Assembly (NCBI GenBank): GCA_903929765.1
Contig: CAIYVX010000039.1
Span: 1 to 32,572 of the forward strand
DNA length: 32,572 nucleotides
Source: an uncultured Planctomycetia bacterium
GTDB lineage: Bacteria > Planctomycetota > Phycisphaerae > FEN-1346 > JAACEH01
Direction: 5' to 3'
Shown here one piece after another: positions 8,249-32,377 of the stretch (the first letter of the stretch is position 1; each line of letters begins with the position of its first letter). Both the position numbers and the translations under genes were made by a program. A model generated the notes under the pieces. That model had not been told where the DNA came from. It saw only the letters and a list, made by a program, of their open reading frames with translations, and made no database searches.

Positions 8249-8251
<3 letters not shown>

Positions 8252-8277
8252 GGTGGCTGCTTGCCGCCACGCTGTGG
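8249..8277 (+). repeat. Module C copy 1, abutting hppA
   Basis: TAGGGTGGCTGCTTGCCGCC followed by ACGC. The opening TAG is the hppA stop codon. The hairpin pairs GTGGC with GCCAC; this copy lacks the usual CCGTTTTCCGC tail. Confidence 0.75.
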
Positions 8278-8283
8278 TATAAT
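8275..8283 (+). promoter_or_regulatory. Extended -10 promoter element upstream of rsfS
   Basis: TGGTATAAT is a perfect extended -10 (TGN-TATAAT). No good -35 is visible at 16-18 bases. It sits at the right edge of the module C copy, so the repeat may have brought or preserved it. A start near 8290 would put the hairpin at 8297-8325 in the leader. Confidence 0.4.
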
Positions 8284-8296
8284 GTCTGTGCTTTTC

Positions 8297-8325
8297 GCAG
8301 GGGCACCCCTCGTGGGGTGCCCTGC
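8297..8325 (+). terminator. Strong GC hairpin after hppA, possible terminator or leader structure
   Basis: GCAGGGGCACCCC pairs with GGGGTGCCCTGC (12 pairs, one bulged G) around a TCGT loop. It is followed by TGTTGTTACC, not by a clean T run, so intrinsic termination is uncertain. It could equally be another hairpin module. Confidence 0.4.
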
Positions 8326-8351
8326 TGTTGTTACCGTTGTTTCTTTTGAAG

Positions 8352-8370
8352 CCCCCAGCATTGCTGGGGG
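8352..8370 (+). repeat. Module B copy 2
   Basis: Central base T; flanked by TTTTGAAG on the left and GCGCTGTTTCTTC on the right. It lies between two + genes. Confidence 0.9.
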
Positions 8371-8388
8371 GCGCTGTTTCTTCTTTTT

Positions 8389-8423
8389 TCTTTTAATTTT
8401 TAATTTTTAACTTTTAATTTTTT
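8389..8423 (+). repeat. AT-rich 7-bp tandem array (module L)
   Basis: TTTTTAA heptamers directly upstream of the rsfS ribosome site. Confidence 0.6.
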
Positions 8424-8424
8424 A

Positions 8425-8439
8425 CGGAGATTCGCTATT
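8425..8439 (+). promoter_or_regulatory. Ribosome site and ATT initiation codon of rsfS
   Basis: CGGAGA, then 7 bases, then ATT. The spacing is ideal for initiation. ATT starts are rare and best known in infC, where they allow IF3 to regulate its own synthesis. Confidence 0.6.
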
Positions 8440-8847
8440 CGTAGCCGTGACCTCGCCATCGCTCTTGCCCGCATTGCCGCCGAGAACCGCTGCCGCGACA
8501 TCGTCGTCCTCAACCTGGGCGACGCCAGTCCCGTCACCGACTTTTTCGTCGTCGCCACCGGCACCAGCGCCCGCCAACTCCGCACCGTCGTCACCAAAAT
8601 GAAGGAATACGTCCGCGACGAGTTGGGCGAAAAATCTCCCAGCCTCGAAGGCCTCGCCTCTGACCGCTGGGTCCTCCTCGACCTCTTCGACGTCGTCGTC
8701 CACGTCTTCGCCCCCGACGCCCGCGACTTCTACGCCCTTGAACTCCTCTGGGGCGACGTTCCCCACCTCGATTGGCAAAAAGGCTACCACCCGACCGGGA
8801 CCGTCGAGGAACCCGAACCAGTTTGGTCCGACCCCGACGATGAGTAA
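8437..8847 (+). CDS. rsfS: Ribosomal silencing factor RsfS, apparent ATT start
   Basis: A 136-residue member of the RsfS/Iojap family, which binds uL14 on the 50S subunit and blocks subunit joining when nutrients are short. The family core is complete: IVVLNLGDASPVTDFFVVAT, then SDRWVLLDLFDVVVHVF and YALELLW. The frame has no ATG, GTG, TTG or CTG between the in-frame TAA at 8401 and the conserved helix SRDLAIALARIA. The best start is ATT at 8437, which lies 7 bases after GGAG (8426-8429) and gives a normal family length. The first internal ATG (8599) would remove half of the domain. A sequencing error at the start codon is the main alternative. Confidence 0.88.
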   Translation: MRSRDLAIALARIAAENRCRDIVVLNLGDASPVTDFFVVATGTSARQLRTVVTKMKEYVRDELGEKSPSLEGLASDRWVLLDLFDVVVHVFAPDARDFYALELLWGDVPHLDWQKGYHPTGTVEEPEPVWSDPDDE

Positions 8848-10849: not shown

Positions 10850-10893
10850 TTTTTTAATTTTTAATTTTTAATTTTTAATTTTTAATTTTGAAT
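10850..10893 (+). repeat. AT-rich 7-bp tandem array (module L)
   Basis: About six TTTTTAA units run up to the base before the queE start codon, leaving no recognisable Shine-Dalgarno sequence for that gene. Confidence 0.7.
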
Positions 10894-24146: not shown

Positions 24147-24192
24147 TTTTCATTTTTCATTTTTCATTTTTCATTTTTAACTTTTAATTTTT
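24147..24192 (+). repeat. AT-rich 7-bp tandem array (module L)
   Basis: TTTTTCA units grading into TTTTTAA, directly downstream of the pfk stop codon (the gene is on -). Confidence 0.7.
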
Positions 24193-27532: not shown

Positions 27533-27575
27533 TTTTTATTTTTAATTTTTCATTTTTAATTTTTAATTTTGAATT
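27533..27575 (+). repeat. AT-rich 7-bp tandem array (module L)
   Basis: TTTTTAA/TTTTTCA units just downstream of the lptG stop codon (gene on -). Confidence 0.65.
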
Positions 27576-32323: not shown

Positions 32324-32377
32324 TGTTTTTTAATTTTTAATTTTTAATTTTTCATTTTTAATTTTTCATTTTTAATT
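32324..32377 (+). repeat. AT-rich 7-bp tandem array (module L)
   Basis: TTTTTAA/TTTTTCA units just downstream of the stop codon of the last gene (on -). Confidence 0.65.

Follow-up and report, generated by a model that had tools for sequence, protein, structure and literature searches.

Few genes other than infC are known to have non-canonical start codons. One of them is Escherichia coli pcnB, which does not encode a ribosome factor and whose AUU start reportedly limits expression, in work by Binns and Masters from 2002. The infC gene itself starts with AUU in E. coli and AUC in Streptomyces (PMC5472188) and with AUA in Staphylococcus aureus (PMC13009471). Streptomyces sigR is repressed by IF3 via its GTC start (PMC5472188), and infC, cvfC1 and ccpN of S. 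aureus have conserved non-canonical starts with extended Shine-Dalgarno (SD) matches (PMC13009471). Switches to such codons were counted by Belinky et al., who found one AUG-to-AUU and two AUG-to-CUG changes among 61,358 ancestral AUG starts (PMC5622118). Furthermore, in an E. coli rimM deletion IF3 stays on the 30S subunit and RsfS on the 50S subunit, and both factors rise (PMC13246957). In text searches, rsfS is named nowhere in PMC13009471, and the term 'start codon' is absent from the RsfS papers PMC3400551, PMC7125091 and PMC13246957. No report of a non-canonical rsfS start was found in the open-licence PMC literature, a scope outside which most subscription papers lie.

The window, i.e. 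the whole stretch of 32,572 nucleotides analysed here, encodes a putative ribosome silencing factor of the RsfS/YbeB/Iojap family on its + strand (8437..8847; 136 codons plus TAA), for which uL14 binding and a block of subunit association are predicted. The gene is flanked by what we take, from the ORF translations, to be a H+-pyrophosphatase gene upstream (stop at 8249-8251) and argS on the other side. Scores of 91.1 bits against TIGR00090 (cut-off 56.9) and 93.6 bits against PF02410 (cut-off 21.6) place the protein in the family. With ATT (8437..8439) counted as residue 1, both profile matches begin at residue 10, the protein aligns without gaps to E. coli RsfS from residue 1, and the domain is complete and keeps the register of characterised members. 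Among the solved RsfS chains, several pair with it under identical residue numbers (2o5a at 13-13, 9q40 and 2id1 at 16-16, 30qz at 18-18), and others are offset relative to the window protein (e.g. 4wcw at 5-9 and 6sj5 at 8-7).

The rsfS frame is closed upstream by an in-frame TAA (8401..8403), from which the codons read TAA TTT TTA ACT TTT AAT TTT TTA CGG AGA TTC GCT ATT CGT AGC CGT GAC CTC GCC. Reading these codons bears out the earlier sequence-only reading, which had placed ATT 7 bases after a GGAG SD core (8426..8429), and a frame scan of 8251-8598 agrees with its claim that zero in-frame ATG, GTG, TTG or CTG codons occur between this stop and the RsfS domain. The sole canonical codon in this frame within 8251-8598 is a GTG at 8317, which is shut off by a stop at 8347, and the first in-frame ATG, at 8599, lies in mid-domain. 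ATT, which differs from ATG by one base, is the sole in-frame canonical or near-cognate codon at SD distance before the domain, and its proposed role as the start fits this distance, the register with E. coli RsfS and the ATC found at the aligned codon of a sister genus. By every test available here, the window rsfS appears to start at AUU (8437). Its SD is limited to the 4-base core, compared with 5 bases at rsfS of a related genome (G001).

The leader of rsfS contains further elements. A repeat scan identified an array of TTTTTAA-type heptamers directly before the SD core (8393..8424), possibly an A+U-rich ribosome standby stretch. Tandem arrays of this type are also present at 1725-1749, 10854-10892, 24170-24187, 27535-27573 and 32330-32375, several of the arrays stand just before gene starts, single heptamer matches number 25 versus 0.07 expected, and the window genome contains 14 arrays in 249 kb. 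RNA folding indicates a terminator-like hairpin after the upstream gene (8300..8323) and, in the fold of 8285-8500, a GC-rich hairpin with a T-rich stretch behind it (8351..8373). The leader with these two strong hairpins has a more stable predicted fold than shuffled sequence (z -2.0), and both hairpins could attenuate transcription. In addition, an out-of-frame ATG at 8282 without a clear SD opens 42 codons across the leader (8282-8410) and terminates at 8408, shortly ahead of the SD of rsfS; this ORF is possibly due to chance. Translational coupling and leader structure were examined as causes of the start pattern described below and fail to explain it.

The nearest genome compared shares its family with the window genome but represents a different genus (58% identity). 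Its rsfS (L002 = L157, JAAYDY010000054.1) reads TAA AGG AGA CGT ACC ATC GAG AGC, with an in-frame stop, AGGAG and then ATC exactly opposite the window ATT, and a frame scan detected no canonical start in frame before the domain. Because the sister genus has ATC at the same codon behind AGGAG, the window ATT is not a base-call error. In seven close pairs of loci, differences over the 60 nt that precede the proposed start are distributed among the three codon positions as 67/69/77, compared with 21/15/60 over the 60 nt that follow it. The third-position bias is found only after the proposed start, which indicates that the coding sequence begins there.

The comparison with relatives suggested by the sequence-only reading was extended across the phylum. 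rsfS is present in 279 of 298 genomes of the class, taken as Phycisphaerae, from which 110 loci were read (90 and 20 further), and in 142 of the 149 genomes of a phylum search, a few of them belonging to the class, with 90 loci of other classes read. Loci without ATG, GTG or TTG between the in-frame stop and the domain, here called forced, account for 28 of the 200 (9/90 in the class, 19/90 in the phylum set and 0/20 among the further class loci). By SD position, near-cognate starts were called in 51/200 loci (27 ATC, 8 ATT, 8 ATA, 5 ACG and 3 CTG), hand-picked from the SD-position list with unclear loci left out, as was L262, which has the genus and start region of L261. These calls fall into 22 of 69 families (families of the first 180 loci), and the other 149 loci have a canonical start or no call. 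One locus, L023, is forced, yet lacks an SD-supported candidate. ATG or GTG in relatives, named by the sequence-only reading as a refuting outcome, was not what this comparison gave: at this position a near-cognate codon persists in the sister genus and in many further relatives, and the pattern reaches wider than had been supposed, into many Planctomycetota relatives. This state is conserved in many families and is not universal. Families f2, f11, f14 and f20 mostly have ATG or TTG (TTG included in f20), while rsfS of family f68 appears to start with ACG. The 20 further class loci, from ten families, include no forced locus and, where the start should lie, no clear SD-backed near-cognate codon; three of them, from family f4, have a common ATC without SD. 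Outside the phylum, rsfS starts with TTG in E. coli and with ATG at the one Verrucomicrobiota locus read (L159, Prosthecobacter).

Two other genes served as controls. frr has ATG at the conserved place in all 30 loci (28 genomes) and no forced locus (0/30) in the same automatic test, and rbfA has ATG or GTG in 29/29 loci. An automatic count of 8/29 forced rbfA loci is an artefact, as the first position of the model already falls on the start codon; an rbfA-like locus below the cut-off (L340) was left out of the forced count. Since both genes have canonical starts, near-cognate starts are not in general use in these genomes.

The SD context was further assessed by collecting all in-frame codons, of whatever identity, that are spaced 5-7 nt from a preceding SD match of 5 or more bases. 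In the class, 20 of 44 SD-placed rsfS codons are ATC, ATT or ATA, compared with 89/3029 elsewhere (2.9%, p=1.5e-18), and in the phylum set 13/61 compared with 116/2917 elsewhere (4.0%, p=1.1e-6); as the loci are related, these p values overstate independence, and the family counts are the safer measure. SD-placed codons of frr comprise ATG in 7/13 and ATT in 1/13 cases. The arrangement is clearest in family f7, where 24 genomes had a match and 18 loci were read. At 14/18 of these rsfS loci a near-cognate codon follows an SD match of 6-8 bases. A canonical codon in the same stretch follows a match of 6 or more bases at 0/18, and the corresponding counts for the controls are 1/30 for frr and 1/29 for rbfA. 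The layout is nearly uniform, consisting of GGAGG, often as AGGAGGTG, a spacer of 6 nt and ATC or ATT. Start calls at 15 of the 18 loci comprise 12 ATC, two ATT and one ATA; the third base drifts and G is never found there, a pattern that selection against AUG would give.

Across the 90 phylum loci, the column nine residues ahead of the domain match holds ATG in nine, ATC in nine, ATA in eight and ATT in one, and the flanking columns contain few such codons. As read from these alignments, codon -9 is the homologous start position, with ATG in some lineages and near-cognate codons in others. Within single genera, start codons are swapped between ATC and ATA twice (family f48) and between ATC and ATT once (family f88), as are ATT and ATC between the window and the sister genus. 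In many lineages, the putative rsfS start is one that stays near-cognate over long evolutionary times, usually behind an SD.

infC, included as a positive control, has ATT, ATC, ATA or ACG starts in most genomes read. In the window genome (L035, G000:C58), whose infC start the sequence-only reading had proposed to look up, the gene reads TAG GAG GGC GAA GCT ATC and starts with ATC, which is likewise of the IF3-rejected kind; ATC is also the infC start of the related genome G001. The window-genome infC continues as ATC GCT ATT, with a second in-frame near-cognate codon two codons on, and ATC has the better SD distance. Apparent ACG starts of infC occur in several other Planctomycetota classes (L282, L293, L295, L299, L301), comparable to rsfS in family f68.

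Hand calls for both genes in 70 genomes combine near-cognate rsfS with near-cognate infC in 37 and canonical infC in 4 cases, and canonical rsfS with near-cognate infC in 22 and canonical infC in 7 cases. The IF3 link put forward by the sequence-only reading is borne out in part: the rsfS codon and the infC start of the window genome are of the IF3-rejected kind, while the start types of the two genes show no significant association in these calls (Fisher p=0.18). infC pieces without an N-terminus and the second fragment of G067 (L125) were left out of the forced count. The sister family f2 has TTG starts in infC (L031, L032, L034, L036) and ATG or GTG starts in rsfS. Family f48 has infC seemingly with ATG (L302, L305, L308) and rsfS still with ATC or ATA, and family f56 combines an ATC start of rsfS with TTG in infC. 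The f2 combination was considered as a sign of coupling and is contradicted by f48 and f56. In f48, IF3 start-codon self-control may have been lost and the near-cognate rsfS start kept. IF3 could still repress rsfS in both f48 and f56, where infC would not answer the same signal via its start codon.

Near-cognate codons (AUU, AUC and AUA, and in some genomes ACG and CUG) would keep RsfS output low because they are disfavoured by IF3. If initiation takes place in vivo at the near-cognate rsfS codon and is sensitive to IF3, as we infer, RsfS synthesis should climb once 30S subunits exceed free IF3. infC, which is near-cognate in the window genome and most relatives, would climb under the same condition. 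A single signal, 30S subunits not covered by IF3, might in this inferred circuit raise IF3 and RsfS together, the factors that oppose association from the 30S and the 50S side, respectively. We consider it reasonably probable that IF3, by discriminating against the start codon, keeps RsfS translation low and probably also meters it. More tentatively, and with somewhat more doubt than confidence, we extend this proposal to Planctomycetota as a whole: IF3 would meter RsfS, a shortage of IF3 relative to 30S would raise IF3 and RsfS together and match the 30S guard with the 50S guard, and AUU, AUC, AUA, ACG and CUG would interchange over the depth of the phylum.

The main rival to IF3 metering is a near-cognate start that merely limits RsfS as a protein harmful in excess, with the IF3 level being irrelevant in practice. 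It would accommodate the weak rsfS starts of several kinds, including TTG in f20 and E. coli, as well as the uncoupled start types of infC and rsfS, and a precedent exists in the AUU start of E. coli pcnB with its reported limiting effect on expression. A long SD before a rejected codon, as at 14/18 f7 loci, is an odd design for simply producing little protein, and the IF3-controlled sigR has the same design, with AGGAGGTG before GTC (PMC5472188). On balance, we regard such a fixed limit as unlikely, though it is the strongest competitor. The TTG of E. coli rsfS, a codon that PMC5472188 lists as not rejected by IF3, counts against IF3 metering, as do the 149 rsfS loci outside the near-cognate calls, the 4-base SD core of the window, the start types of infC and rsfS with their non-significant association, and the infC starts of f48 and f56. 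A nutrient or growth-phase signal could also change how efficiently the near-cognate codon is used, independently of the IF3 level. This would be consistent with S. aureus ccpN (AUA), which in rich medium goes from about 10% of the AUG level to as much as 30% (PMC13009471). In that study the AUU start of cvfC1 did not respond to the medium, and this explanation seems improbable.

Ribosomes arriving from an upstream gene might alternatively restart at the near-cognate codon after termination, in which case codon identity would matter little. At 14 of the 51 near-cognate loci (e.g. L192, L199, L242 and L041), the start lies no more than 20 nt from the end of some long open frame, whether a gene or not, but at the remaining 37 no long frame ends within this distance, and the upstream gene of the window ends 186 nt before ATT with the terminator-like hairpin in between. 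Reinitiation is accordingly very improbable as a general cause. Still less credible is a sequence error or a true start elsewhere, be it through an upstream frameshift or at the ATG at 8599. In its favour are the 116 contigs of the window genome assembly and the out-of-frame ATG at 8282 with its 42 codons ending at 8408; against this stand the sister genus and 26 other forced rsfS loci, the onset of the coding pattern at the near-cognate codon, and the loss of about half of the conserved domain that a start at 8599 would entail.

IF3 metering, if correct, would make rsfS a direct test of whether other genes read out the IF3 level. The presence of near-cognate rsfS starts in 22/69 families suggests long-term selection for a poor start codon on a second translation gene. 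Gene annotation limited to ATG, GTG and TTG likely misplaces the starts of rsfS and infC in these genomes. Furthermore, the near-cognate start fits the physiological link between IF3 and RsfS reported for E. coli (PMC13246957).

To the known systems, rsfS adds an apparent start codon of the IF3-rejected class that much of a phylum retains on a gene for a ribosome-assembly checkpoint. The window rsfS shares its AUU start with pcnB, in which this codon reportedly limits expression. Like cvfC1 (AUU) and ccpN (AUA) of S. aureus, which have conserved non-canonical starts and extended SD matches, rsfS has a conserved non-canonical start, with SD matches of 6-8 bases at most f7 loci; unlike rsfS, the two S. 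aureus genes were found by ribosome profiling and are not ribosome-assembly genes. With sigR, rsfS shares the rejected start codon outside infC, frequent mis-annotation and, in family f7, a strong SD, whereas sigR has GTC, is known from one genus, encodes a sigma factor and has experimentally shown IF3 repression. The closest parallel is infC, which in the same genomes also has a near-cognate start behind an SD with long-range conservation and whose product likewise acts on subunit joining. Unlike infC, which regulates itself and for which IF3 control is established (PMC5472188), rsfS would be a putative target of IF3 in trans.
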